The notes below the pieces were generated by a model. It was given only the letters and a program-made list of their open reading frames with translations, was not told the DNA's origin and searched no databases. From the NCBI GenBank assembly GCA_016868815.1, contig VGFQ01000008.1, forward strand, positions 1 through 64,000: a stretch of 64,000 bases of DNA. The letters are read 5' to 3'. How positions within the stretch are numbered: the stretch's first letter is position 1; the number at the start of each line of letters is the position of its first letter. Shown here one piece after another: positions 36,787 through 47,873 of this stretch. The position numbers and the translations under genes are program-made. This stretch comes from Bacteroidota bacterium (GTDB taxonomy: Bacteria > Bacteroidota > Bacteroidia > Chitinophagales > Chitinophagaceae).

Positions 36787-37320
36787 GGTGTTCTATCGTC
36801 CGAGAGGAACGTCTAAGTAAACAGTCAAATTTGAATACGCATGTCACATTTCTTACATACGAATGCAGTAAGATGCATGATGCATATGGCCTAATGGCAG
36901 GAAAAGACAGTAAACCAGATCATCTGGTATACCATTTGGTTCTCAAAAATTAAAACGTATAATTTATTTTCTTGATCCCTTTACATCGGCCATGCAACAA
37001 GATTGTTTTAACAATTTGAGTCGTTTTAAAATTTATTATATAGATATATAGGATATGATTGTAGTAAAATTCAACTTTCACATGAGTTGATTAATTTACA
37101 TCCTATACACGTAGCAAAACTCACATTCGTGAAATCTATTCTAATGATGCATTCGAACTTTTTGGTGATGAAAATTTTCAAAATATTGAAGGCTTTTATG
37201 GATCCTTTAGCGGCTACTGGGCAGAGAACATTATACACATTAACAGGCGGAATTTTTACTATAGCATCTTATTTGGCAGGGATAAATTTTCACAGAAAAG
37301 GGCTTCCTGTCTTCAAAATT
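36787..37320. other. AT-rich intergenic segment at the left edge of the metal island
   Basis: Base composition changes abruptly here from GC-rich to AT-rich. No complete gene is visible. It holds a 15-base palindrome at 36914-36928, a half-palindrome TGCAACAAGATTGTTT at 36993-37008 that shares its first eight bases with the operator of the nickel/cobalt operon, and a start-less coding-like frame (37095-37322). No cobalamin riboswitch consensus box was recognised. Confidence 0.5.
36914..36928. promoter_or_regulatory. 15-base palindrome upstream of the cob genes
   Basis: ACCAGAT-C-ATCTGGT is a perfect 7-1-7 inverted repeat, followed at once by a smaller one (ACCA-TT-TGGT). It may be an operator; no promoter could be placed relative to it. 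Confidence 0.3.
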
Positions 37321-37322
37321 AA
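37095..37322 (+). pseudogene. Start-less coding-like fragment before cobT
   Basis: The frame ending in TAA at 37320-37322 is open back to a stop at 37092 but has no ATG, GTG or TTG. Its translation (for example FELFGDENFQNIEGFYGSF, then SGYWAENIIHINRRN) has protein-like composition, rich in Asp, Glu, Tyr and Phe. It looks like the end of a gene that lost its 5' part. I do not recognise the family. An overlapping frame with an ATG (37087-37341) is hydrophobic and less convincing. Confidence 0.25.
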
Positions 37323-37331
37323 GGAGGTGAT
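37321..37331 (+). promoter_or_regulatory. Strong Shine-Dalgarno sequence of cobT
   Basis: AAGGAGGTGAT is fully complementary to the usual 3' end of 16S rRNA, 2 nt from the ATG at 37334 (GGAGG core 6 nt away). Genes elsewhere in the window show nothing like it. Confidence 0.7.
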
Positions 37332-37333
37332 AT

Positions 37334-38338
37334 ATGCTTAGAAATAATTTACAATCTATCATTGATTTGAAAACAAAACCTCCAGGGTCTTTAGGTTTAC
37401 TGGAAAAAATTGCATTACAAATCGGATTAATTCAAAAAACAAACAAGCCTAAACTGAAAAAACCAACAATAATTGTTTTTGCAGGAGATCACGGTATCGC
37501 TAAAGAGGGTGTCAGTAATTACCCTCAAGAAGTAACTTATCAAATGGTATTAAATTTCCTAAATGGCGGGGCAGCAATAAATATTTTTTCTAAAGAAAAT
37601 AGAATAAATCTGAAAATAGTAGATGCGGGTGTCAATTTTGACTTCAAAAAAAATAATAAATTAATTATTTCGAAAATAGGTAATGGAACAAATAATTTTC
37701 TCAATGAAAAAGCAATGACGAAGGTTCAGTACGAACTCTGCATGAAAAAAGGAGGTGATATTGTTGAGAAAATTTATAATAGTGGATGCAATGTTATTGG
37801 CTTTGGAGAAATGGGTATTGGGAATACATCCAGCGCTACAATGATAATGAGTAACCTATGCAACATTCCCATTGAAAAGTGTACAGGTCGCGGGACAGGG
37901 CTTAATAAGATAAAACTTAAAAGAAAAATTGAAATACTCAAAAAAGCTCAAGCTTTCCACGGAAAGAAAAATGATCCAGCCCTTATACTAAGAATCTATG
38001 GTGGATTTGAAATTGCGCAAATGTGTGGTGCAATGCTATCTGCATATGAAAAAAATATGCTTATTCTTATTGACGGTTTTATTGCCAGTAGTGCATTTTT
38101 AGTAGCTTATAAAATAAAATCAGGAATTATTGGTAATGCATTATTTTGTCATCAAAGTGATGAGAATGGGCATAAAACGTTATTAAAATTTTTGAAAGCT
38201 GAACCAATATTAAAGCTCAATATGCGACTAGGAGAAGGTACCGGTTGCGCACTTGCCTACCCAATAATCAAAAATGCTGTGGCTTTTTTGAATGACATGG
38301 CAAGCTTTGAGAGTGCGAGAGTTAGTAACAAAAAATAA
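37334..38338 (+). CDS. cobT: CobT: nicotinate-nucleotide-dimethylbenzimidazole phosphoribosyltransferase
   Basis: 334 residues. KTKPPGSLGLLEKIALQIG at the start, IIVFAGDHGIAKEGVS, NGGAAINIF, GFGEMGIGNTSSATM and a late LGEGTGCALA with the catalytic Glu near residue 300 are the conserved CobT motifs. It activates the lower-ligand base of cobalamin as the alpha-ribazole phosphate. AT-rich codon use unlike the flanking regions; unusually strong ribosome-binding site. It heads the cobT/membrane protein/cobS/cobC run, the nucleotide-loop assembly branch; cobU is not in the window. Confidence 0.95.
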   Translation: MLRNNLQSIIDLKTKPPGSLGLLEKIALQIGLIQKTNKPKLKKPTIIVFAGDHGIAKEGVSNYPQEVTYQMVLNFLNGGAAINIFSKENRINLKIVDAGVNFDFKKNNKLIISKIGNGTNNFLNEKAMTKVQYELCMKKGGDIVEKIYNSGCNVIGFGEMGIGNTSSATMIMSNLCNIPIEKCTGRGTGLNKIKLKRKIEILKKAQAFHGKKNDPALILRIYGGFEIAQMCGAMLSAYEKNMLILIDGFIASSAFLVAYKIKSGIIGNALFCHQSDENGHKTLLKFLKAEPILKLNMRLGEGTGCALAYPIIKNAVAFLNDMASFESARVSNKK

Positions 38339-38373
38339 ACGGAAAAGAGGATGTGTAAAAAAATATATAAAAA

Positions 38374-38589
38374 ATGAATTGGGATTTAATTGGGTATATC
38401 GGAACTGGATTTGTATTAGGTTCATTTTTAGTTAATGACATCACACGATTAAGGATTATTAATACAATTGGAGCAGTAATGTGGCTGATATATGGTATTG
38501 CTTTATCATTAAAGCCACAGATTCTTGTAAACGTGTCTATTATTTTAATTCATTTTTATTGGTTCTATAATAATATGAGAAAATCTTGA
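38374..38589 (+). CDS. Small membrane protein between cobT and cobS
   Basis: 71 residues, MNWDLIGYIGTGFVLGSFLV followed by two further hydrophobic segments (about 27-46 and 50-66). It resembles small three-helix bacterial proteins sometimes grouped with YgjV/CBU_0592, but I am not sure. It sits 35 nt after cobT and 35 nt before cobS in the same direction, so it belongs to the transcript. A role in membrane-bound B12 assembly or in cobalamin-precursor uptake is conceivable but unproven. Confidence 0.7.
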   Translation: MNWDLIGYIGTGFVLGSFLVNDITRLRIINTIGAVMWLIYGIALSLKPQILVNVSIILIHFYWFYNNMRKS

Positions 38590-38624
38590 TATTATATTCT
38601 ATTAATAACATTAATTCGGTTTAA

Positions 38625-39413
38625 TTGAGAGAAGAACTAAAAATATTTTTTACTGCAGTAATGTTCTACACAAGGATACCTTGTCCGAAGAATATTGATC
38701 ATTCACCAGATTATATAAATAAGGCAACAAGATATTTTCCATTAATTGGGTGGATAGTTGGCATAATATCCTTTCTTGTATTTTGGATATGTTCATTGGT
38801 ATTTGATACCAACTTAGCGGCAATATTATCCATATTAGCAGGTATACTTGTTACGGGTGCTTTCCATGAGGATGGCTTAGCGGACGTAGTTGACGGCTTT
38901 GGTGGAGGCTGGACAAAGGCTAAAATACTTGATATAATGAAAGACAGCCGTGTAGGCGCCTTTGGGGTAATTGCATTAATTTTTATGATATTAATAAAAT
39001 ATATTTCATTAAATAAAATTTTTTCATCTATAGATGATGACGATCATCTCTTTGCTTCATTAATTTTTATTTCATATCATTCCTTAGCAAGAATAACCGC
39101 TATAAATATAGTTTTTACCTCAAATTATGTTAGAGATGATGAAAATAGTAAAGCAAAACCTGTAGCAAAAGATTATAATGTGAAAGAGATATTTTTGGCA
39201 TTTATTTTTGGATTAACTCCATTATTTATTTTATGTGTATATAAGTGGTACTTCATTTTTGTTACCATACCACTATTATTTTTGAATTTTTACTCTAAAT
39301 ATTATTTTGAAAAATGGATTGATGGATATACAGGCGACTGCCTGGGGGCTGTAGAGCAATTTGGTGAGTGTATTTGCCTCTTGACATATGTTGCGATATG
39401 GAGGTATATATAA
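38625..39413 (+). CDS. cobS: CobS: adenosylcobinamide-GDP ribazoletransferase
   Basis: 262 residues from a TTG start at 38625 (REELKIFFTAVMFYTRIPCP follows); no suitable ATG exists before the conserved region. FHEDGLADVVDGFGGG is the metal-binding signature, with KDSRVGAFGV and DGYTGDCLGAVEQ near the end. Several membrane helices. It joins activated cobinamide and alpha-ribazole (phosphate) into cobalamin. The stop lies inside the start of the phosphatase gene (16-nt overlap). Confidence 0.93.
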   Translation: MREELKIFFTAVMFYTRIPCPKNIDHSPDYINKATRYFPLIGWIVGIISFLVFWICSLVFDTNLAAILSILAGILVTGAFHEDGLADVVDGFGGGWTKAKILDIMKDSRVGAFGVIALIFMILIKYISLNKIFSSIDDDDHLFASLIFISYHSLARITAINIVFTSNYVRDDENSKAKPVAKDYNVKEIFLAFIFGLTPLFILCVYKWYFIFVTIPLLFLNFYSKYYFEKWIDGYTGDCLGAVEQFGECICLLTYVAIWRYI

Positions 39414-39961
39414 TTCGCCACACAAAAGTGGCAGTTGATAAGGACATATGTTATGGACATTTCGATGTTCCATTAGCAACCACCTTTTCAAACGAGGTAA
39501 TACAATTAGCTAATGCACTACCAAAAGAATTTGATGCTGTGTATAGTAGCCCATCGCATAGATGTAAAAAATTAGCATCAGCTCTTGAATTACAAAACGT
39601 CATTTTTGATAGCTCAATAAAGGAAATGAATTTTGGAAATTGGGAGAATAAAAAATGGAAAGACCTTGATCAAACTGAACTAAATCATTGGATGGCTGAT
39701 TTTATAAATGTAAAAGCTCCTAATGGAGAGAACTTGATCGAACTTTTTGAGCGTGTAGAAATATTTTTTGATAATCTGAGACTAAGGCAGCATAAAAAAG
39801 TATTAATAATTACTCACGCGGGCGTGATTAGATGTATATGGTCATATTTATTAAAAATACCATTAGAAAATATTTTTAAAATCCCAGTGGGATATAATGA
39901 ATTATTTATCTGTGAACTATCGAAAAATTCATCAATAGATATGATTAAAAGAATCAAATAG
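39398..39961 (+). CDS. cobC: Histidine phosphatase, CobC-like (alpha-ribazole phosphatase)
   Basis: 187 residues from the ATG at 39398 (MEVYIIRHTKVAVDKDICYG); an earlier in-frame ATG at 39368 lies deeper in cobS. RHT is the catalytic His motif, VYSSPSHRCKKLA the phosphate pocket, MNFGNWENKKW the acid region and ITHAGVIRC the second His. Overlap with cobS supports the cobalamin role: removing the phosphate from alpha-ribazole 5'-phosphate or the final adenosylcobalamin phosphate. Confidence 0.88.
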   Translation: MEVYIIRHTKVAVDKDICYGHFDVPLATTFSNEVIQLANALPKEFDAVYSSPSHRCKKLASALELQNVIFDSSIKEMNFGNWENKKWKDLDQTELNHWMADFINVKAPNGENLIELFERVEIFFDNLRLRQHKKVLIITHAGVIRCIWSYLLKIPLENIFKIPVGYNELFICELSKNSSIDMIKRIK

Positions 39962-40378
39962 AAAATATTTAATAATATAATTCAAAAACTATTTATAGTT
40001 ACTCTATTGTAGGACTTTTCTAATAAAATTACAGTCATTATAGAATATCATAAACCCTTCTACAATTATAATTAGATAAAAATATATGACACACGCTTAA
40101 TATGGATAATTGAATTCATTGAGATAGACAAATACATGAAATAAGGTAATATTAGAAAAAATCCAACATCATAGAATCCTACATATGTACATGAGCAAAG
40201 AATTTCATGAATTTGGAATCTCCCTTTACGCGTCATTTAACAAGAATAATTACTGGGTATGGATATAAAAGAGCATATTATGGGTTAGAATATCAAGCGC
40301 CTACATTATGCACGTATATCTCATAACGTAATGTGGCTTTTTTACTGAGGATCAAAATCAGTGCGTTCAGATGCTCAA
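39962..40378. other. AT-rich intergenic stretch between convergent genes
   Basis: Lies between the cobC-like gene and the bestrophin gene, which face each other. I see no gene, strong hairpin with a T-run, or recognisable RNA element in it. Confidence 0.5.
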
Positions 40379-41275
40379 CTATGGCAATAATATTTCGTGT
40401 GTATGCATTAAAATATTTGATTGAATCAAATCAGTCGAAATATCATTTGCATCATTCCCGAAAGGGTCTTCGATTTCTTCTGCAATAAGCTCTAAACTCG
40501 CTAGTACATAGAAAACAAAAATAACAATAGGTATTATCCAATATCCCAATTGGAATACAAAACCGATTGGCAGTGTCATTATATATATAAATATAAACTT
40601 CTTGATGAAAACATTATAGGAATATGGTATAGGCGTATTTTTGATTCTTTCACATGCCCCACAGATTTCAGATAAACTTTGTAATTCTGCGTTTAAAAAA
40701 AGTAGATTATTTGAAGTCAAAATTCCTTTGGCCTCTAAAATACATACACGCTCATAAATAGCAGATGCAATTTGATTAGGGATGTGTTTCAAAGGGTTTA
40801 GACATCGTAATTCGGGATTTCGAGCAAGTGAATCAAATAACTCACTCTGGGATGATAATCCTCTCAAATGGTTATGTAAAGAAAGTGCAAAAGCAGGGAT
40901 CAATTCCCGAAATATACGTCTATCCTCTGCGCACTCAGCTGGAATCAAATGATTCAGCTTCATTGCAAGATTACGTGTATTGTTCACCAGACTACCCCAG
41001 AGTTTTCTTCCTTCCCACCATCGCTCATATGCAGTATTGGTCCTGAAAACTAATAGCATAGAAATTGCGAACCCTAACAGTGTATGAAGTATTGTTAAAT
41101 TACGAATACTATTTTTTTCTGAAAGCCTAAAATAACTAATTTCTAACCATGCAACTCCGCCTGAGTATAGTCCAATGATAATCATCATCGGAAATAAATT
41201 TCGAAATGTATCTGATTTATGGAAACGAAATAATGTATAAAACCACTCCTTTGGATTGTAGTAGATCATAATCAA
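40379..41275 (-). CDS. Bestrophin-like membrane channel
   Basis: 298 residues. The start MIYYNPKEWFYTLFRFHKSDTF, then LLGFAISMLLVFRTNTAYERWWEGRKLWGSLVNNTRNL, is the classic bestrophin/RFP-TM region, with four hydrophobic segments and the late DPFGNDANDIS motif. Bacterial bestrophins form pentameric ion channels, some of them cation-selective. It stands alone in the AT-rich island, 458 nt from the second CobW gene, so its link to metal or B12 metabolism is only positional. Confidence 0.92.
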   Translation of the reverse strand: MIMIYYNPKEWFYTLFRFHKSDTFRNLFPMMIIIGLYSGGVAWLEISYFRLSEKNSIRNLTILHTLLGFAISMLLVFRTNTAYERWWEGRKLWGSLVNNTRNLAMKLNHLIPAECAEDRRIFRELIPAFALSLHNHLRGLSSQSELFDSLARNPELRCLNPLKHIPNQIASAIYERVCILEAKGILTSNNLLFLNAELQSLSEICGACERIKNTPIPYSYNVFIKKFIFIYIMTLPIGFVFQLGYWIIPIVIFVFYVLASLELIAEEIEDPFGNDANDISTDLIQSNILMHTHEILLP

Positions 41276-41732
41276 ATTTTGAATATAAAATACTGGACCT
41301 GATTGTCTGAATTAGTACAATCAATATTACGTTGTTATATGTTTACTATATCATCATTTTTGATGACAGTTTATAAGGTTCCATTTATCAGTATGAGAAA
41401 ATTTTTAATCAAAAATTAATCGATCAATTAGATAATACATACACACAAATACTAATTGTTACATGCACAATTTATGTTTATGCATTTTTGCAAATACAAC
41501 AACTAAACATTCTCTCAATAAAGGAATATTTTTTACTAGTTTAACCTTTATCTTCCTTAGAATATCGGAAACTTATATCCTCCAAATGATCACCAAATAA
41601 TAATTACTTTCGGACCAAGTTAGTGTATACAATTAATAGGTATTCAAGTTGTTGATATATTGTGAAGTTTAAGTATACCTACCGCTTTATATCATTAGTG
41701 TGTTTATAAAGGAAACTAATGATGAATGAATT
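41276..41732. other. AT-rich intergenic region upstream of the bestrophin gene
   Basis: 457 nt between the bestrophin start and the end of the second CobW gene, both on the minus strand. No gene seen. It should hold the bestrophin promoter, but no clear TAnnTTTG element in the right orientation was found, nor an operator-like palindrome. Confidence 0.45.
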
Positions 41733-42710
41733 TTAGTGATAAGCATTTGACAGGCATCTTTCAAGTAGTCCTTGGATAAGGTCTCTTTGAAGCTCTTTAC
41801 CAATAAATACAAGTTTTGTAATCGGCTTTTCAAAACTATCCCATTTTCTTCCTTTCTGAAAAACGTGGGTATCAGCTACTGATTGAATTATCATACGCTC
41901 GGAAAAATCGTTAACATGAATAAAGCCTTTAATACGAAAAAGGTTTTTCCCATAAATATCTGAAATAGTTTCTAGCATCCCTTTGAGGGCAAAAAAATTG
42001 AATGATATATCAAAGTCAAAACACATTGATTTTATTCTATGCTGCACTTTATTTTCGCCATTATCAAGGATCTTCATATCAATAATCTTCTTTTCTACAT
42101 TACTAGGTATAAACGCTTTTAAATTTAATATATCTGCATCGGCTACAAATCCATGAGATGAAATATAAATTGATGCTAGGGGATTTATTTGTTTCATCAT
42201 TTCGAAAACATTATGAGTTTTCTCTTGGCTGACAGAATCAGTTTTGGTAAGTAGTATGACATCAGCGTATCCTATTTGTTTTGCTGCTTCCTTGGTATTT
42301 AATAAAAATTGATCAATATGGATTACATCTACTGTGCATATAACTGCATCAATGTAGTAATCAATAAAGAAATCTTCATTGAATAATGTAAAAATTATTT
42401 GTGAAGGATCTGATACACCAGTAGATTCAATAATTAAATGATTAAAATTTTCTTTTACATCGACCATTTTCTGTAGCGTTTCTAATAATTCACTACTTTT
42501 CGAACAGCAGATACATCCACTGCTAATGGTATTCAATACTGAAACTCTATTATCAATTAAATACGAATCAAATGCATAATTTGCAAATTCATTTTCAATG
42601 ACTGCAAATTTTTTTTCCTGTCTATTTAAGAGCAAGTGGTTTAGAAGAGTTGTTTTCCCACTGCCAAGAAATCCTGTTAGAATCGATACAGGAATTTGAT
42701 TTGTACTCAT
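41733..42710 (-). CDS. CobW/COG0523 GTPase, short form
   Basis: 325 residues from the ATG at 42710; a frame reaching to 42752 would overlap the methyltransferase. Walker A GFLGSGKT (13-20), the metal-binding CxCC in SSGCICCSKS (Cys66, 68, 69), Walker B-type LIIESTGVSDP and TKTD as the guanine motif. C-terminal CobW_C domain with RIKGFIHVND. COG0523 proteins load Zn, Co or other metals on client proteins at the cost of GTP. It is the last gene of the seven-gene operon and lacks the His-rich insert of its paralogue. Confidence 0.93.
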   Translation of the reverse strand: MSTNQIPVSILTGFLGSGKTTLLNHLLLNRQEKKFAVIENEFANYAFDSYLIDNRVSVLNTISSGCICCSKSSELLETLQKMVDVKENFNHLIIESTGVSDPSQIIFTLFNEDFFIDYYIDAVICTVDVIHIDQFLLNTKEAAKQIGYADVILLTKTDSVSQEKTHNVFEMMKQINPLASIYISSHGFVADADILNLKAFIPSNVEKKIIDMKILDNGENKVQHRIKSMCFDFDISFNFFALKGMLETISDIYGKNLFRIKGFIHVNDFSERMIIQSVADTHVFQKGRKWDSFEKPITKLVFIGKELQRDLIQGLLERCLSNAYH

Positions 42711-42729
42711 AGAAGCCCTACAGAAAATT

Positions 42730-43479
42730 TCAGCATTTTTCAGCAATAACAATCATACGTTGTGATGTATTAGAACAATATGGATCGAGATGATAATTAC
42801 CAAAAACTTCTACTAATTGTAAGTTCATATCACTGAACCAACACTTTATTTGTTCAAGTTCAATAAGCATTACCCGTTCTGTAAACATAAAATCTTTCCC
42901 CTTATCTTTAAATTTAATAAATTTATAAACGAAATTGTCTTGTATATTTTTCTTTATATGAAAAGTGATATCATTCGTTTTTTTTATTTCCTGCTTTACT
43001 AAATGCTGCTTAAGATAATTTGGATTAAAGTAATCTAAAATGAATTTACCATGTAGCGTAAGGGCATTGGATATATTTGTTATGACCTTGATATTATCTT
43101 TAATATCTTCAAAATAACCGAAACTTGTAAACAGATTCAAAATTATTTGATAAGAATTATCACCAAAGGGTTCTCGCATATCATGGATATAAAATGAAGC
43201 ATTATTCGTCGCATTTTTTTTTGCATATATTATACTAGGTGCAGAGAGGTCTATCCCCGTAACAGAAAGTCCGATGCTTGCTAGATAATTTACATGACGA
43301 CCTCGACCACAGGCTAGGTCGAGTATCTGTTGCTTACTATATAATTTTAAATAGCTATTCAAATTATCTAAAAATAATTTTGCATCTCGTCTACCTCGTG
43401 CATTATATAATATGTGATAATACTCGCTCTCGAACCATTCTTCGTACCATGCAGGAGAAATTTTTTGTTGAATACTCAT
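42730..43479 (-). CDS. Class I SAM-dependent methyltransferase
   Basis: 249 residues. QILDLACGRGRHVNYLASIG (SAM motif I), VTGIDLSAPSI (motif II) and DMREPFGDNSYQIILNLFTSFGYF (post-motif region) mark a Rossmann methyltransferase of the UbiE/Methyltransf_25 type. The substrate is unknown. Located 10 nt after the WD40 gene and 19 nt before the CobW gene, between two proteins of metal delivery; it could modify a metal ligand or a client protein, but this is only inference from position. Confidence 0.9.
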   Translation of the reverse strand: MSIQQKISPAWYEEWFESEYYHILYNARGRRDAKLFLDNLNSYLKLYSKQQILDLACGRGRHVNYLASIGLSVTGIDLSAPSIIYAKKNATNNASFYIHDMREPFGDNSYQIILNLFTSFGYFEDIKDNIKVITNISNALTLHGKFILDYFNPNYLKQHLVKQEIKKTNDITFHIKKNIQDNFVYKFIKFKDKGKDFMFTERVMLIELEQIKCWFSDMNLQLVEVFGNYHLDPYCSNTSQRMIVIAEKC

Positions 43480-43489
43480 TGCATTAATA

Positions 43490-44545
43490 TTAACTAGCTC
43501 TTAAACCCTGTTTATGGTTTATAGGGCACTTTAGTAGAACAATAGTTCCTACGGATGTGCCCACTAATACATAACGATCATTAGGACTCCACATAAGAGT
43601 AGTTATCTCGTGGTCTACATTAACAACAAAATCGGTCACGCTGTCCTCTAGCGGGCAAAAAAAGAGAATTAGGCCCCCTTCATCTCCACTTACAAGAACG
43701 TCGTCATTATATTGAAAGGAGATCGCTTTTACAGTACGATTGTGACCCTCCATCATTCTGGGGGCACGATTGTGAGGACCATCGCCGCTGAAATCCCAGA
43801 CTATTACCTCCTTGCCACTGTTGGTCGCAAGAAGAAACCCATTAAAATGCCATGATAAAAATTTAACTTTAGAGGGAAAACCATGCATGTATAAGTCTGA
43901 ACCAGGCTCATATGGCAAAGGCCAAATGTGCACCTGATAATCCTGTGTACCGCAACAAACATAGTGTTTATCAGGGCTTATAGTCAATGATACCACTGCA
44001 TTTTTAAGGGCGAGAAATTGTAATTTTTCTTTGTTGCGAACGCTATATAAGTGGACACCCCCGAAAGAACCTATACATAGCGTAGTACTGTCATTGTGCC
44101 ATGATAAGGCACTAATAGTATTTGAAGAAAATCTAAGCGTATCGTATACTTCACCCGTTACATTAAGAATAATTACCATTTTATCAAATGCAAAAGCTAC
44201 ATATTTACCATTGGGGCTGAAAACAATATGCTCTATCCATTTGCCTTGTTCTTCAAACTTGTATATAGTGTCACCAAATTCGATATTTGTCATCAAAAAA
44301 ATACCATCTTCCCCACCTGTTGCTAAAATGCCATATTGCTGCGAAATATCACTAGCAATGATAGCTCCAGTATGCAGTTTTCTTGAGAATATACGATGAG
44401 CATCTTCCCTTGCATATGCCCACACAGTACCGCTACTCGTGGTAGCAATAATTACTTCGTCACCATTTGTGAAAAAAACTTGCCGAATATAATCATCGAG
44501 TTCTCTACGCCAAATTATTTGCTGTTGCTCATCAGGAAATAACAT
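43490..44545 (-). CDS. WD40-repeat protein of the CobW operon
   Basis: 351 residues, no signal peptide, so cytoplasmic. Seven or so WD40-type blades are visible: GTVWAYARED, ILATGGEDGIFLM, IEHIVFSPNGKYVAF, ISALSWHNDSTTLCIGS, YVCCGTQDYQVHIWPL, FLLATNSGKEVIVWDF, VKAISFQYNDDVLVSGDEGG, and TTLMWSPNDRYVLVGTSVG near the end. It should form a propeller that binds other proteins. Its place between a CobW GTPase and a methyltransferase suggests a scaffold or specificity factor for metal delivery. Not related to TolB-like periplasmic proteins. Confidence 0.88.
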   Translation of the reverse strand: MLFPDEQQQIIWRRELDDYIRQVFFTNGDEVIIATTSSGTVWAYAREDAHRIFSRKLHTGAIIASDISQQYGILATGGEDGIFLMTNIEFGDTIYKFEEQGKWIEHIVFSPNGKYVAFAFDKMVIILNVTGEVYDTLRFSSNTISALSWHNDSTTLCIGSFGGVHLYSVRNKEKLQFLALKNAVVSLTISPDKHYVCCGTQDYQVHIWPLPYEPGSDLYMHGFPSKVKFLSWHFNGFLLATNSGKEVIVWDFSGDGPHNRAPRMMEGHNRTVKAISFQYNDDVLVSGDEGGLILFFCPLEDSVTDFVVNVDHEITTLMWSPNDRYVLVGTSVGTIVLLKCPINHKQGLRAS

Positions 44546-44609
44546 AAGACAATCAGATATTATAGAAAATGTATCATTATATATGTAGTTAATAAAAGGT
44601 ATTTCTCAT

Positions 44610-45968
44610 TTAATTAACTAAACAAGCTTCAAATCCCTCTGTAATTTCCAGTCTATTAAGATTGCGACCAATAAATACTAATTGGTTTCTTCGCTTTTCA
44701 GAAGAACGCCAATGCCTATCCTCAGAAGCATCAAGAAGCATATGCACAGCTTGGAATACCAAGCGTGTATCACTACCATTGATATTCAAAATACCTTTAC
44801 TCCGAAAAATATCCATCCCTTTTGTTTGTAGCATAAAATTGATCCATACTTTAAATTTTTTAAGATCAACTTCCTTCTCATTTTCAATACCAACACTACT
44901 AACCTCGTCATCATGTGAATGAGAGTGTGCATATGTATAATTTTCAATAGATGATATATTCATACCATTGTACTGTATACACATATCAAATTCCTCTGGT
45001 CCGTGCTGCGTAAAAACAGCATAATATCCCTCATCATGGGGTTGAAAAGTAAATTGATTGATACTTTTCTCAACATTAAATTGATGTAATTCTTTATGTG
45101 TTGTGAAAAATGTCATCGGCTCATGTACTTGAGCGTAATCACTAAATACAAGAATTGCCCTTTTTTTTGCAGCCTCAAATGATTCATATGAAGAAGATGG
45201 AAGTTTTATAAATGCAATAGTGATACTAGGGTCAGGGCCACTTCCAAAAGTAATAGTGTGTTGTTCTTTAGTGAAACTATAGATACCACCATATTCAAAG
45301 GGTAGTTCTTCTTGAAGAAAGACTGGATTTAATTCAACTTTTTTATCTAAATCAAAAGCATTTATGTCAAGTACATATTTCAAATCAAGATTTGCATCTT
45401 TAACACGGTGAATTGATGCTAAGGAATTCATACTCCGTAACCGTTTTTCCAGATTATTGAGCGTCAAGGTTGGTACTAAATCAATCTTATTTAGAACAAT
45501 TACATCTGCAAAAGCAATTTGACGTTTACACTCATCGCTGTCATCAATATGTTGTAATACATGTTTTGCATCTACTAGTGTTATAATAGCATCTATCTTA
45601 TATTTTGATTGCATTTCATCATCAACAAAAAAAGTTTGTGCTACTGGCCCAGGATCTGCAAGACCTGTTGTTTCTATCATTATCATATCAAGCCTATCTT
45701 TTCGTTTCATCAGATTTCCTAATATGCGTATTAAATCTCCACGAACAGTACAACATATACAGCCATTATTCATTTCGAAAATTTCTTCGTCGGCATCAAT
45801 CACTAATTCATTATCTACACCTACTTCTCCGAATTCATTTTCAATGACCGCTATTTTTTTCCCATGCTGCTCAGTCAGAATTCGATTTAGTAGTGTAGTT
45901 TTTCCACTTCCTAAAAACCCAGTAAGTATTGTAACTGGAATACGCTCATCGAGAAAAGTATCCATCAT
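44610..45968 (-). CDS. CobW/COG0523 GTPase, long His-containing form
   Basis: 452 residues. Walker A GFLGSGKT (17-24), metal site CICC in NNGCICCTVRGD (Cys70, 72, 73), Walker B IMIETTGLADPGP, guanine motif LNKIDLV. The C-terminal CobW_C domain (from about 270) has an insert with HSHSHDDE near residue 345, a usual metal-binding tail of zinc or cobalt chaperones, and ends FIGRNLNRLEITEGFEACLV. Longer and different from the second CobW in the operon, so the two may serve different clients or metals. Starts 5 nt downstream of the 85-residue gene. Confidence 0.94.
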   Translation of the reverse strand: MMDTFLDERIPVTILTGFLGSGKTTLLNRILTEQHGKKIAVIENEFGEVGVDNELVIDADEEIFEMNNGCICCTVRGDLIRILGNLMKRKDRLDMIMIETTGLADPGPVAQTFFVDDEMQSKYKIDAIITLVDAKHVLQHIDDSDECKRQIAFADVIVLNKIDLVPTLTLNNLEKRLRSMNSLASIHRVKDANLDLKYVLDINAFDLDKKVELNPVFLQEELPFEYGGIYSFTKEQHTITFGSGPDPSITIAFIKLPSSSYESFEAAKKRAILVFSDYAQVHEPMTFFTTHKELHQFNVEKSINQFTFQPHDEGYYAVFTQHGPEEFDMCIQYNGMNISSIENYTYAHSHSHDDEVSSVGIENEKEVDLKKFKVWINFMLQTKGMDIFRSKGILNINGSDTRLVFQAVHMLLDASEDRHWRSSEKRRNQLVFIGRNLNRLEITEGFEACLVN

Positions 45969-45973
45969 TTTTT

Positions 45974-46231
45974 TTATTTTTTTAGATTATCAATATCGGA
46001 TTTACGTACGTAGAGTAAGGGTTTACGAATGCTAAATTTTTGTATGTTCCCTTGCTCTAAAAGGGCAATAACAGTCTCTTTATCAGGGCAATTCGGCTCA
46101 AAGCAATTAATTTCTGTTACCATAATAACCGTCTCAGCGCTTAAGTTAAATTTTTTTGTAACCCACTCCTTAATAAGGATATTGGAGTTTTTTCTAAGCT
46201 CAAGTTCATTGATATCCTTATTGCCAAGCAA
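45974..46231 (-). CDS. 85-residue Cys-containing protein of the CobW operon, unknown
   Basis: No signal peptide or membrane segment. The core INCFEPNCPDKETVIALLE has two cysteines (43 and 48) followed by Pro and an ETV turn, then KFSIRKPLLYVRKSDI; this pattern suggests a small beta-alpha fold that could bind a metal through CxxxxC. I have seen similar short proteins beside metal-chaperone genes but cannot name the family. Between the [2Fe-2S] gene (36-nt gap) and the CobW gene (5-nt gap). Intact and co-directional. Confidence 0.75.
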   Translation of the reverse strand: MLGNKDINELELRKNSNILIKEWVTKKFNLSAETVIMVTEINCFEPNCPDKETVIALLEQGNIQKFSIRKPLLYVRKSDIDNLKK

Positions 46232-46267
46232 GAGATAAGTATTTTTTATCAGTCAGACCCATGGTAT

Positions 46268-46600
46268 CTAAGTCGTTTTAATAAATGCATCACCAAATGA
46301 ATATAAATCTAGAGACTCATTATCCTTTTTTTCAATGATGCATTTCTTTATAAAATGTTTTGCATTTTCTGGAGTTATATTTTTGTACCATTTGCCAGTT
46401 GGCATAACAATTACAATTGGTCCATCATCACACCTCCCGTTGCAATAGGTCTTAGTCGTGTGCACAATTTTGTCTAATCCCTCGTCAGCTAAATACTCGC
46501 GAATACGGCGAGTGCTATCTTCTGCGCCTTTACGGCAACACGAGCCACCATTGCAGAGGAATAGGTGTGTCTCTATTTCAGTTAAATCTTTTATTGCCAC
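46268..46600 (-). CDS. Thioredoxin-like [2Fe-2S] ferredoxin
   Basis: 110 residues. LFLCNGGSCCRKGAED (Cys16, 21, 22) and TKTYCNGRCDDGP (Cys53 and 57) are the cluster ligands of the thioredoxin-like [2Fe-2S] fold seen in NuoE-type proteins and in short ferredoxins near cobalamin and CobW genes. The rest, IVIVMPTGKWYKNITPENAKHFI, is the end of the fold. Cytoplasmic. It overlaps the permease gene by 23 nt. It may supply electrons for a cobalt-reduction step or serve as a metal-binding protein. Confidence 0.9.
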   Translation of the reverse strand: MAIKDLTEIETHLFLCNGGSCCRKGAEDSTRRIREYLADEGLDKIVHTTKTYCNGRCDDGPIVIVMPTGKWYKNITPENAKHFIKKCIIEKKDNESLDLYSFGDAFIKTT

Positions 46601-47381
46601 CTTGTACTTTTAATTTTGATAAATACATAAATATTCGAATATATATGAAAGCTACTAGCAATACCAACATAATACCAGCTGTGGAACTTGCAGTAGTTGA
46701 TAAAGATATTTTAGTATAAAAAGTTGATAGAATATTATAAACTGCCACAGTAAATGAGGAAATAACAATTATCCAACCCATAATTCGTCGGTACCGTAAC
46801 ACAACTTTGTCTGATAGTCCTAGAATGGAAATTCGATATAATAATACCCCATCAACGGTATCGGATATCACCATCCCAAAAGTAAAAATCAGCCCAAAAA
46901 AAAGTGAAGACCACACCGCATTCGAGCTTAAAGCTCCATAGCTTAATGCAGTCAGATGGGTGGCAGTATCAAATACTAGGGCAAATAATACTCCGACGAA
47001 AAATACGGATAACGCATTTATATTTTCAGGTATTTTTAAAAACCGGGAGCGCCAACCTACAGGCTGATATTTTTCATTTTTTAGTAAAGATGAAAGATTC
47101 AAAAACCCAATGACAAATAATAGTAAAGTGGGCATCCATACTAACCAGGTAGGCGCATGTTGGCTGAGGTCCAAAGAAGAGAAGCCTAAATTTATTACTA
47201 ATGACATTGAAGTAACTGTAAAACCGTGGCCTAAGGCAAAAAAAGTACCGGTCCAATAAGCTATTCGACTTTTCTTTTCAGTTAGTCGCATGCTTAAATT
47301 ATCAATAATAGTTATATGATCAGGATCAAGACCGTGCCGAAGCCCCAGTAAAAAAATCAGAATAACAACATTAAAATCCAT
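46578..47381 (-). CDS. NiCoT-type nickel/cobalt permease
   Basis: 267 residues, about seven membrane helices. The start holds LRHGLDPDHITIIDN, the HX4DH signature of the NiCoT/HoxN/NixA family (His16, Asp21, His22), and FALGHGFTV and LVFDTATHLTALSY are the second and third family motifs. It imports Ni2+ or Co2+ at high affinity; cobalt is more likely here in view of the nearby B12 genes and CobW proteins. First gene of the operon, with a promoter and a 7-1-7 operator directly upstream. One member of this set might instead move zinc. Confidence 0.9.
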   Translation of the reverse strand: MDFNVVILIFLLGLRHGLDPDHITIIDNLSMRLTEKKSRIAYWTGTFFALGHGFTVTSMSLVINLGFSSLDLSQHAPTWLVWMPTLLLFVIGFLNLSSLLKNEKYQPVGWRSRFLKIPENINALSVFFVGVLFALVFDTATHLTALSYGALSSNAVWSSLFFGLIFTFGMVISDTVDGVLLYRISILGLSDKVVLRYRRIMGWIIVISSFTVAVYNILSTFYTKISLSTTASSTAGIMLVLLVAFIYIRIFMYLSKLKVQGGNKRFN

Positions 47382-47409
47382 GTGTAAATCAATTTTGAAT
47401 GAATAGCAT

Positions 47410-47417
47410 CAAATGTA
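47410..47417 (-). promoter_or_regulatory. -7 element of the NiCoT-CobW operon
   Basis: TACATTTG on the minus strand, a perfect TAnnTTTG, lies 28 nt before the permease ATG and 9 nt downstream of the palindromic operator. Confidence 0.6.
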
Positions 47418-47420
47418 GTC

Positions 47421-47428
47421 TATTTTTG
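47421..47428 (+). promoter_or_regulatory. Possible divergent -7 element
   Basis: TATTTTTG on the plus strand matches TAnnTTTG and overlaps the operator by two bases. If active it would transcribe away from the permease, into the structured region at 47443-47494. Confidence 0.35.
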
Positions 47429-47441
47429 CAACAATGTTGCA
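47427..47441. promoter_or_regulatory. Fur/Zur-like 7-1-7 operator
   Basis: TGCAACA-A-TGTTGCA is a perfect inverted repeat with a single central base. It covers the spacer/-33 region of the permease operon promoter, so a bound protein would repress. Fur-family regulators (Fur, Zur, Nur) bind 7-1-7 sites; which metal is sensed cannot be told. Confidence 0.6.
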
Positions 47442-47442
47442 T

Positions 47443-47494
47443 CTATAATTATCCCTTTTGCTAGCCGGGAGTAACCCCTCTTTGCTAATTATAG
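47443..47494. repeat. Inverted repeat with 34-nt loop next to the operator
   Basis: CTATAATTA at 47443-47451 and TAATTATAG at 47486-47494 pair perfectly over 9 bp. The loop contains TCCC and GGGA which can also pair. On the plus strand it would be an RNA hairpin just after the possible divergent promoter. Confidence 0.35.
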
Positions 47495-47499
47495 CCTTC

Positions 47500-47873
47500 T
47501 TGAGGGTACAATAAACATACATTCCCTATCCAAATTATTTTGTATAGTGAGCTTGGCAAAAGAGGCATTGGCTAGCGTACGTACCTCCGCCTGCCAGACG
47601 ATCTCACGTGCATCCTATCCATCAGCATAGATGACTAGAAAGAGTCAGATACAACTGCAGGAATATTCAAATATGAACTTTATGAGAAGATTGGCTGATG
47701 GGCAAGCTGCCGACAATAGCGAGCATCAAAAGAAATGATGGGATGCCGCCAGTTGACTCGTCAGAAAATGAAGCCAGGATCTGCGCCCCCCTGCATAAGA
47801 AAATATTGGTATTGCAGTAGATGGCTTATCGACTCTGCAAAACCCTGACCGGGAAGATGCATCTTGTCCCTGG
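47500..47873. other. Right edge of the AT-rich island, no clear gene
   Basis: Composition returns to the GC-richer background from about 47560. A 35-codon plus-strand frame (47631-47738, starting MTRKSQIQLQEYS) is the only notable ORF; it has no ribosome site or recognisable motif and is not called as a gene. No integrase, tRNA or insertion sequence marks the boundary. Confidence 0.4.

Follow-up and report, generated by a model that had tools for sequence, protein, structure and literature searches.

The human COG0523 GTPase ZNG1 delivers zinc. The closest systems described in bacteria belong to COG0523 subfamily 5, whose members, in the sections of Haas et al. (2009; PMC2770081) that deal with them, cluster with WD40 genes, with znuABC and with Zur sites; the human COG0523 homologues are placed in the same subfamily, and threonyl-tRNA synthetase (ThrRS) figures among the enzymes with Zur-regulated paralogues. 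In the part of a 2018 review on Zur (PMC6103462) devoted to such genes, thrS2 and a COG0523 gene belong to the Zur regulon of Anabaena, zinc-related COG0523 genes are described as often misnamed cobW, and the contribution of COG0523 is called unclear. We analysed a window of 64,000 nucleotides (positions 1 to 64,000 of contig VGFQ01000008.1, assembly GCA_016868815.1, from a Bacteroidota bacterium of the Chitinophagaceae), in which seven consecutive genes encode a NicO/NiCoT-type permease, a thioredoxin-like [2Fe-2S] protein (Fd), an 85-residue protein, a long COG0523 (CobW-like) GTPase, a WD40 propeller, a methyltransferase and a short COG0523 GTPase (Table 1). With a probability of about 0.75, we regard this operon as one that was gained by horizontal transfer, serves in zinc starvation and is controlled by the Fur-family repressor Zur. 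It is most likely a zinc-starvation variant of the known COG0523-WD40 pairing, with one unnamed protein family in addition.

Zinc is preferred over nickel or cobalt because of the operator that precedes the operon, a second operon (thrS and COG0523) with the same operator, the sites of the genus that lie beside a Fur-family gene, and most of the annotated neighbours of the 85-residue family. The proposed operator is a palindrome, TGCAACATTGTTGCA, situated beyond the limits that the preliminary description had set for the unit, to which it probably belongs. It is the sole match in the window when up to two mismatches are allowed, while shuffled sequences gave 0.18 matches on average and at least one match in 15 cases out of 100. 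Among the 146 loci compared, the exact palindrome was found solely in the window itself (L098) and in a locus of Microscillaceae (L017), where it lies 19 nt before the start codon of the ZIP gene that opens a ZIP-Fd-CobW-85aa-WD40 operon; this locus also holds the top-scoring relative of the WD40 protein. In a deltaproteobacterial metagenome-assembled genome (MAG) with the gene order NicO-CobW-WD40 (L054), NicO probably starts at a GTG, and a palindrome with one mismatch stands 29 nt before that codon. None of the other loci from L008 to L096 has a site with zero or one mismatch; at two mismatches, five further places were found in these loci.

We then searched 247 Bacteroidota genomes and found 14 exact sites in 11 of them, against one match for a control pattern. 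The neighbours of these sites are thrS with a COG0523 gene (L147, in this genome), the present operon (L158), Fur-family genes (L150, L153, L154), ZIP (L154), COG0523 (L157), DUF1826 (L151), MerC (L153, L159), a lipoprotein (L149, L150) and a TonB-type gene named by eye (L149). Within the genus, 39 out of 41 genomes carry sites with at most one mismatch (120 sites vs. one for the control). The 29 genus loci examined are those returned by the search and not a random draw. Eight of them lie at MerC (six with SCO1 and a Fur-family gene, two incomplete), four adjoin a TonB-type receptor, and another precedes a lipoprotein with relatives at L149 and L150. In this genus, MerC proteins may form part of zinc control. 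At L180, L181, L182 and L186, the palindrome is upstream of a TonB-type receptor (recognised by eye) next to a thiolase-like gene, a candidate outer-membrane metal receptor.

A single Fur-family gene was found in the host (L161:1462-1881), against whose product the orthologous Fur-family proteins of the six complete MerC loci score 173–200 bits, and its SCO1-Fur arrangement is divergent from MerC, as in the sister genomes. Autoregulation would place a palindrome before the regulator's own unit, as is seen in these sister genomes, and we therefore call the regulator Zur. From these sequence patterns we infer that the palindrome is a Zur operator; other zinc-starvation genes in this lineage have it too, as in a Zur regulon.

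The acquisition of the operon by horizontal transfer is suggested by its base composition. It lies in an island of about 33% GC, with 24–44% GC in 250-base steps, flanked by 54–62% GC on the left and 44–59% GC in the first 2.2 kb on the right; in 2-kb bins, GC is 31–39% inside the island and 48–63% outside. The left edge is sharp, with a fall from 54% to 30% over no more than 500 bases, whereas the right one is softer (34, 44, 51, 59%). The island also contains a bestrophin gene, identified by Pfam. A second AT-rich island (L178, G000:C5:103915-107278) was found on contig C5 of the same draft genome (2.85 Mb, 33 contigs, 92% complete). It comprises a 598-aa ThrRS frame followed by a 401-aa COG0523 gene, the third of the host, with 36% and 33% GC between neighbours at 57–58%, and the host's other exact TGCAACATTGTTGCA is located 29 nt before thrS. 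The presence of one operator before two AT-rich zinc-type operons is consistent with a joint transfer of zinc-starvation modules and their control. That the second such island is on another contig makes a chimeric assembly less likely. An empty site of the island was sought in sister genomes with proteins of the left and right flanks; in G607, both have matches that share a contig, at a distance of about 3.8 kb, the right match being only 44% identical and the relative orientation different.

The third gene of the operon was the only one of the seven open reading frames (ORFs) that Pfam did not identify. For the 85-aa ORF, no Pfam or NCBIfam match was found at E 0.01 (DUF6085 appears at E 0.05, under its cut-off), the same is true of all 12 family members, and a PDB profile search with the family gave nothing convincing (best E 0.01). 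Its homologues in several phyla indicate a real gene. In an alignment of 12 members (A3), C43, C48, P49, E52, T53 and A56 are invariant. The family is rare, occurring in 2 out of 345 Bacteroidota genomes (this one included) and in 6 out of 199 genomes of the phylum sample around G368 (G368 included); in the other five of these, it adjoins COG0523 in three and not in two. In 50 genomes picked for holding the WD40 gene, the family was found in 20, at 24 places, and at 16 of these places COG0523 is matched on the same strand no more than 1.3 kb away. No COG0523 gene was detected in the 1.5 kb around the 85-aa gene in four Cytophagales MAGs (L117, L118, L121, L122). In two Planctomycetota loci (L115, L116), the 85-aa protein follows another class of COG0523 (PVTVLSGFLGAGKTT type).

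Plasmids also carry this family. Of 16 plasmid records with a member, eight were examined, and COG0523 adjoins it in all but that of Calothrix (L142). On alphaproteobacterial plasmids, this pair is accompanied by zinc-related genes: aztABC in Sinorhizobium and Shinella, aztA and aztC in Phyllobacterium, a zinc ABC importer with HupE and a Fur gene in Mesorhizobium, and a Fur gene in Agrobacterium; the Gemmobacter plasmid shows the order hisI-Fur-ABC-GTPase-WD40, and one plasmid locus (L145) has no annotation.

We also investigated the neighbourhoods of the WD40 gene. In Bacteroidota, the WD40 protein was found in only 3 of 296 genomes, that of the window included. A scan of genome contigs yielded 169 relatives, and the analysis covered the best 80. 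Seventy of these 80 loci have a same-strand COG0523 match no more than 1.5 kb away, namely the long form in 29, the short form in 36 (among them the truncated gene of L025, classed by score) and a partial or other form in five; among the remaining ten, L048 has a match on the opposite strand. At a distance of up to 8 kb from the 29 long-form loci, we counted the 85-aa family in 14 (L049 included, with the gene 7 kb away), Fd and ZnuA in eight each, NicO in six, Fur, ZnuB, FecCD and an RcnR-like gene in four each, ZIP in three and CbiM/CbiQ in two. These counts are not independent, as Poribacteria MAGs account for 7 of the 14 loci that have the 85-aa family, and L024 and L051 share one genome. 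Around the 36 short-form loci, the 85-aa family, Fd and NicO were never found, and ZnuA (9), creatininase (9), ZnuB (8), CDF (7), Fur (2) and FecCD (1) were. No relative of Fd, of the 85-aa protein or of NicO was found in the 12 kb surrounding the CobW-WD40 genes of another Bacteroidota genome (G137). On plasmids, 33 records matched the WD40 protein, and a gene for a GTP-binding protein adjoins it in five of the six examined, L015 being the exception. Large proteins that resemble ABC-type permeases by eye recur near the CobW-WD40 cassette (L017, L030, L031, L034, L039, L040, L055).

The preliminary description had presented the seven genes, with their NiCoT permease, as a possible undescribed metal-trafficking system, to be judged by their co-occurrence in other genomes, and had seen no known role for WD40 in such a path. 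Judged in this way, the outcome is mixed. The first five genes do recur elsewhere, in varied sets, which speaks for a metal-trafficking operon; the operator and the neighbours point to zinc instead of nickel or cobalt. The seven-gene whole is local to this locus among the loci compared: no relative of the methyltransferase was found in loci L008 to L096 (E 1e-3), the short CobW protein is a long branch without close kin (placement support 0.487), and both genes look like local additions. As for the WD40 protein, its pairing with COG0523 and the link to zinc had already been published in 2009 (PMC2770081, in the part cited above).

The gene order given in that description holds. The seven ORFs were confirmed on the minus strand from 47381 to 41733, with a spacing that ranges from a 23-nt overlap (Fd on NicO) to a 64-nt gap. 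The short CobW gene starts either at ATG 42710 (19 nt after the methyltransferase) or at TTG 42752 (23-nt overlap). Scans for sigma-70 promoters (37 vs. 32.9 in shuffled sequences) and terminators (2 vs. 3.0) did not exceed shuffles, so that the limits of the operon rest on spacing.

Table 1. Features of the window and related palindrome sites
Feature	Position or locus	Strand	Remarks
Perfect 7-1-7 palindrome of 15 bp, TGCAACATTGTTGCA, proposed Zur operator	47427..47441	.	46–60 nt before first start codon
NicO/NiCoT-type permease, first gene	46578..47381	-	PF03824 2.5e-17, 63.6 bits vs. cut-off 27.7; TM2 RHGLDPDH
Thioredoxin-like [2Fe-2S] protein (Fd)	46268..46600	-	GTG start; PF01257 (2Fe-2S_thioredx) 3.8e-07
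85-aa protein, unnamed family	45974..46231	-	TTG start; C-x-E-x2-C-P-x2-E-T; gap after Fd 36 nt
Long COG0523 (CobW-like) GTPase	44610..45968	-	PF02492 5.7e-62, PF07683 (CobW_C) 6e-24; gap after 85-aa ORF 5 nt
WD40 propeller, COG0523 partner	43490..44545	-	PF00400 7.6e-22; gap after long CobW 64 nt
S-adenosylmethionine (SAM)-dependent methyltransferase	42730..43479	-	PF13847 (Methyltransf_31) 8.1e-14; gap after WD40 10 nt
Short COG0523 GTPase, long branch	41733..42710	-	PF02492 5.7e-46, PF07683 1.6e-15
AT-rich island, about 10.8 kb	36900..47700	.	about 33% GC; 24–44% GC in 250-base steps
cobT, cobS, cobC (B12 lower-ligand genes)	37334..39961	+	NCBIfam over cut-offs: cobT_DBIPRT 426.3 bits, PRK00235.1-3 284.7, ribazole_cobC 171.5
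Genus palindrome between MerC and SCO1-Fur	L161; L179, L189, L193, L196, L197, L200, L205, L207		six complete, two incomplete

Both COG0523 proteins pass the Pfam cut-offs for PF02492 and PF07683, and both contain GFLGSGKTT and GCICC, which we take to be the P-loop and the GCxCC metal motif of COG0523 G3E GTPases. Their best NCBIfam match is the YjiA-type NF008578 (255.5 bits for the long and 218.9 for the short form; cut-off 361), and YjiA-type structures (1nij, 4ixm, 4ixn) are their only PDB relatives at E 0.001. The equivalog of the ZigA zinc chaperone (NF038288) is also missed (182.6 and 130.7 bits; cut-off 600). The long form had been said to carry a His-rich insert; this insert is mainly a domain of about 125 aa (residues ~222-348) with a short HSHSHDD stretch at its end, which is common to the long forms of alignment A2 and matches no Pfam domain. 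Fd scores 30.5 bits against PF01257 (cut-off 24.8) and has the cysteines C16-x4-C21 and C53-x3-C57, presumably the four-cysteine ligand pattern (C-x4-C, C-x3-C) of thioredoxin-like [2Fe-2S] ferredoxins. Its homologue in L017 (147 bits) has an in-frame MAIK at the corresponding place.

The permease reaches 65.9 bits against TIGR00802 (NiCoT subfamily) and misses the cut-off of 333.05. The signatures of this subfamily, as given in Table 2 of PMC7689651, are (R/K)HAXDADH(I/L) in transmembrane segment (TM) 2, FXXGHS(T/S)(V/I)V in TM3, LGX(D/E)T(A/S)(T/S)E in TM5 and GMXXXD(T/S)XD in TM6. Three of these four are altered in the permease (RHGLDPDHI, FALGHGFTV, LVFDTATH), TM6 is intact (GMVISDTVD), and the HxxDxDH core is kept in TM2, with RHGLDPDH in place of (R/K)HAXDADH.

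Several observations weigh against a zinc-starvation operon under Zur. Among the 80 WD40 loci, a site with zero or one mismatch was found in L017 and L054 alone, and none with up to two mismatches lies near the COG0523-WD40 genes of G137. No recognised zinc-type gene lies beside 5 of the 14 exact sites (L148, L152, L155, L160, L156), or beside 16 of the 29 genus loci, which are inside genes or unclear. The MerC/SCO1-Fur site of the host is degenerate (TGTAATAAGGTTGCA, three mismatches), and such matches mean little, since at three mismatches the genome has 72 sites vs. 24 for the control. Both exact sites of the host are in AT-rich islands; their reading by the resident regulator is therefore deduced from the sister genomes, and the one Fur-family protein of the host may be an iron-responsive Fur. 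As only one ThrRS was found in the 92% complete assembly, a role of thrS as a zinc-sparing paralogue is unsupported. Finally, the permease belongs to a family of nickel/cobalt transporters, the cob genes share its AT-rich block, and CbiM/CbiQ, NicO and RcnR-like genes lie near relatives of the CobW-WD40 genes.

Another possibility is that cobalt stands in for zinc: Zur would derepress a nickel/cobalt permease, Co2+ would take the place of Zn2+ in enzymes that tolerate it, and the metals would be sorted by the two COG0523 forms. The Zur-type operator immediately precedes a NiCoT-type gene in this operon and, with one mismatch, in L054; near L018 and L045, NicO is again found with zinc-type genes; and two differing COG0523 forms share one operon. 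We nevertheless consider this unlikely, because TM2 of the permease reads HGLDPDH vs. HAXDADH in the nickel-cobalt permeases (PMC7689651, Table 2) and the operon of L017 starts with ZIP. The operon might also supply cobalt for B12, the NiCoT permease importing Co2+, the CobW proteins passing it to corrin synthesis and cobT, cobS and cobC finishing the cofactor. Membership in NicO, the three cob genes in the same AT-rich block and CbiM/CbiQ near 2 of the 29 related long-CobW loci agree with such a supply. This is improbable, as both CobW proteins miss the cut-off of the cobalamin CobW equivalog TIGR02475 (193.4 bits for the long and 141.6 for the short form vs. 332.1), no cobalamin riboswitch in the window reaches the gathering score, thrS, ZIP and Fur-family genes have the same operator, and the cob genes lie on the opposite strand, more than 1.7 kb away, with the bestrophin gene between. 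An iron or oxidative-stress operon under iron Fur or PerR, for which the single Fur-family gene of the host and the [2Fe-2S] protein might speak, is highly improbable, because the sites precede thrS with COG0523, ZIP and DUF1826, and no iron-uptake gene was recognised at the sites examined, though the TonB-type receptors at four genus sites could serve iron.

Under Zur control in response to zinc, the operon could work as follows. When zinc is sufficient, Zn-Zur bound to the palindrome would block transcription, and the genes would be made when zinc runs out. The NiCoT-type permease, with its altered canonical nickel/cobalt motif, may then import scarce Zn2+, which the COG0523 GTPases, judging from their family, would deliver in a GTP-dependent manner to priority apo-enzymes. 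Repeated adjacency to the GTPase gene suggests that the WD40 protein and the 85-aa Cys protein are partners of the GTPase, the former perhaps a docking platform for the client or the GTPase and the latter a metal relay or an adaptor; the [2Fe-2S] protein would probably give a redox or sensing input. A broader proposal, which we put forward tentatively and hold to be less probable than not, is that the 85-aa, WD40 and thioredoxin-like [2Fe-2S] proteins are dedicated subunits of a COG0523 zinc-delivery machine that spreads across phyla as a mobile cassette, with the 85-aa proteins as a new family of metal relays or client adaptors, and HxxDPDH NiCoT permeases turned into Zur-controlled importers of zinc (or of cobalt for zinc).

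In our judgement, client choice and loading by COG0523 GTPases are still largely open questions, and a conserved small protein beside these GTPases across phyla, together with a defined operator, offers direct experimental handles. A candidate Zur motif is gained for a Bacteroidota genus, and the labels 'CobW' and 'NiCoT' can hide zinc systems. In the main texts of the open-access literature searched, we found no mention of the 85-aa family, of the link with Fd or, among the matches listed, of the Bacteroidota motif, and no Zur motif is given in the portion of PMC9976891 consulted.

The operon thus resembles several known systems in part. Like COG0523 subfamily 5 (PMC2770081, same sections), it has a GTPase gene adjoining a WD40 gene, which in that subfamily are close to Zur sites and to genes for zinc uptake, but it differs by a long GTPase with an insert, Fd, the 85-aa protein, the NiCoT-type permease, the methyltransferase and a second, short GTPase; this likeness rests on gene context and not on a tree with reference sequences. 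As in the Zur regulon of Anabaena (PMC6103462, same part), ThrRS and COG0523 occur in one regulon, in the second island, but the Anabaena gene is thrS2 whereas a single ThrRS was found here. The rhizobial aztABC(D) zinc uptake loci share the COG0523 gene followed by a member of the 85-aa family, but have an ABC importer in place of NiCoT, and no WD40 gene is listed in the three stretches. The permease shares NicO, the HxxDxDH core and the TM6 motif GMxxxDTxD with the NiCoT permeases HoxN/NixA, from which the subfamily score and the altered signatures set it apart. Both GTPases are closest to the YjiA type, but stay under its cut-off, and the long one has an insert. Unlike human ZNG1, they have bacterial partners, namely the WD40 protein, Fd and the 85-aa protein.

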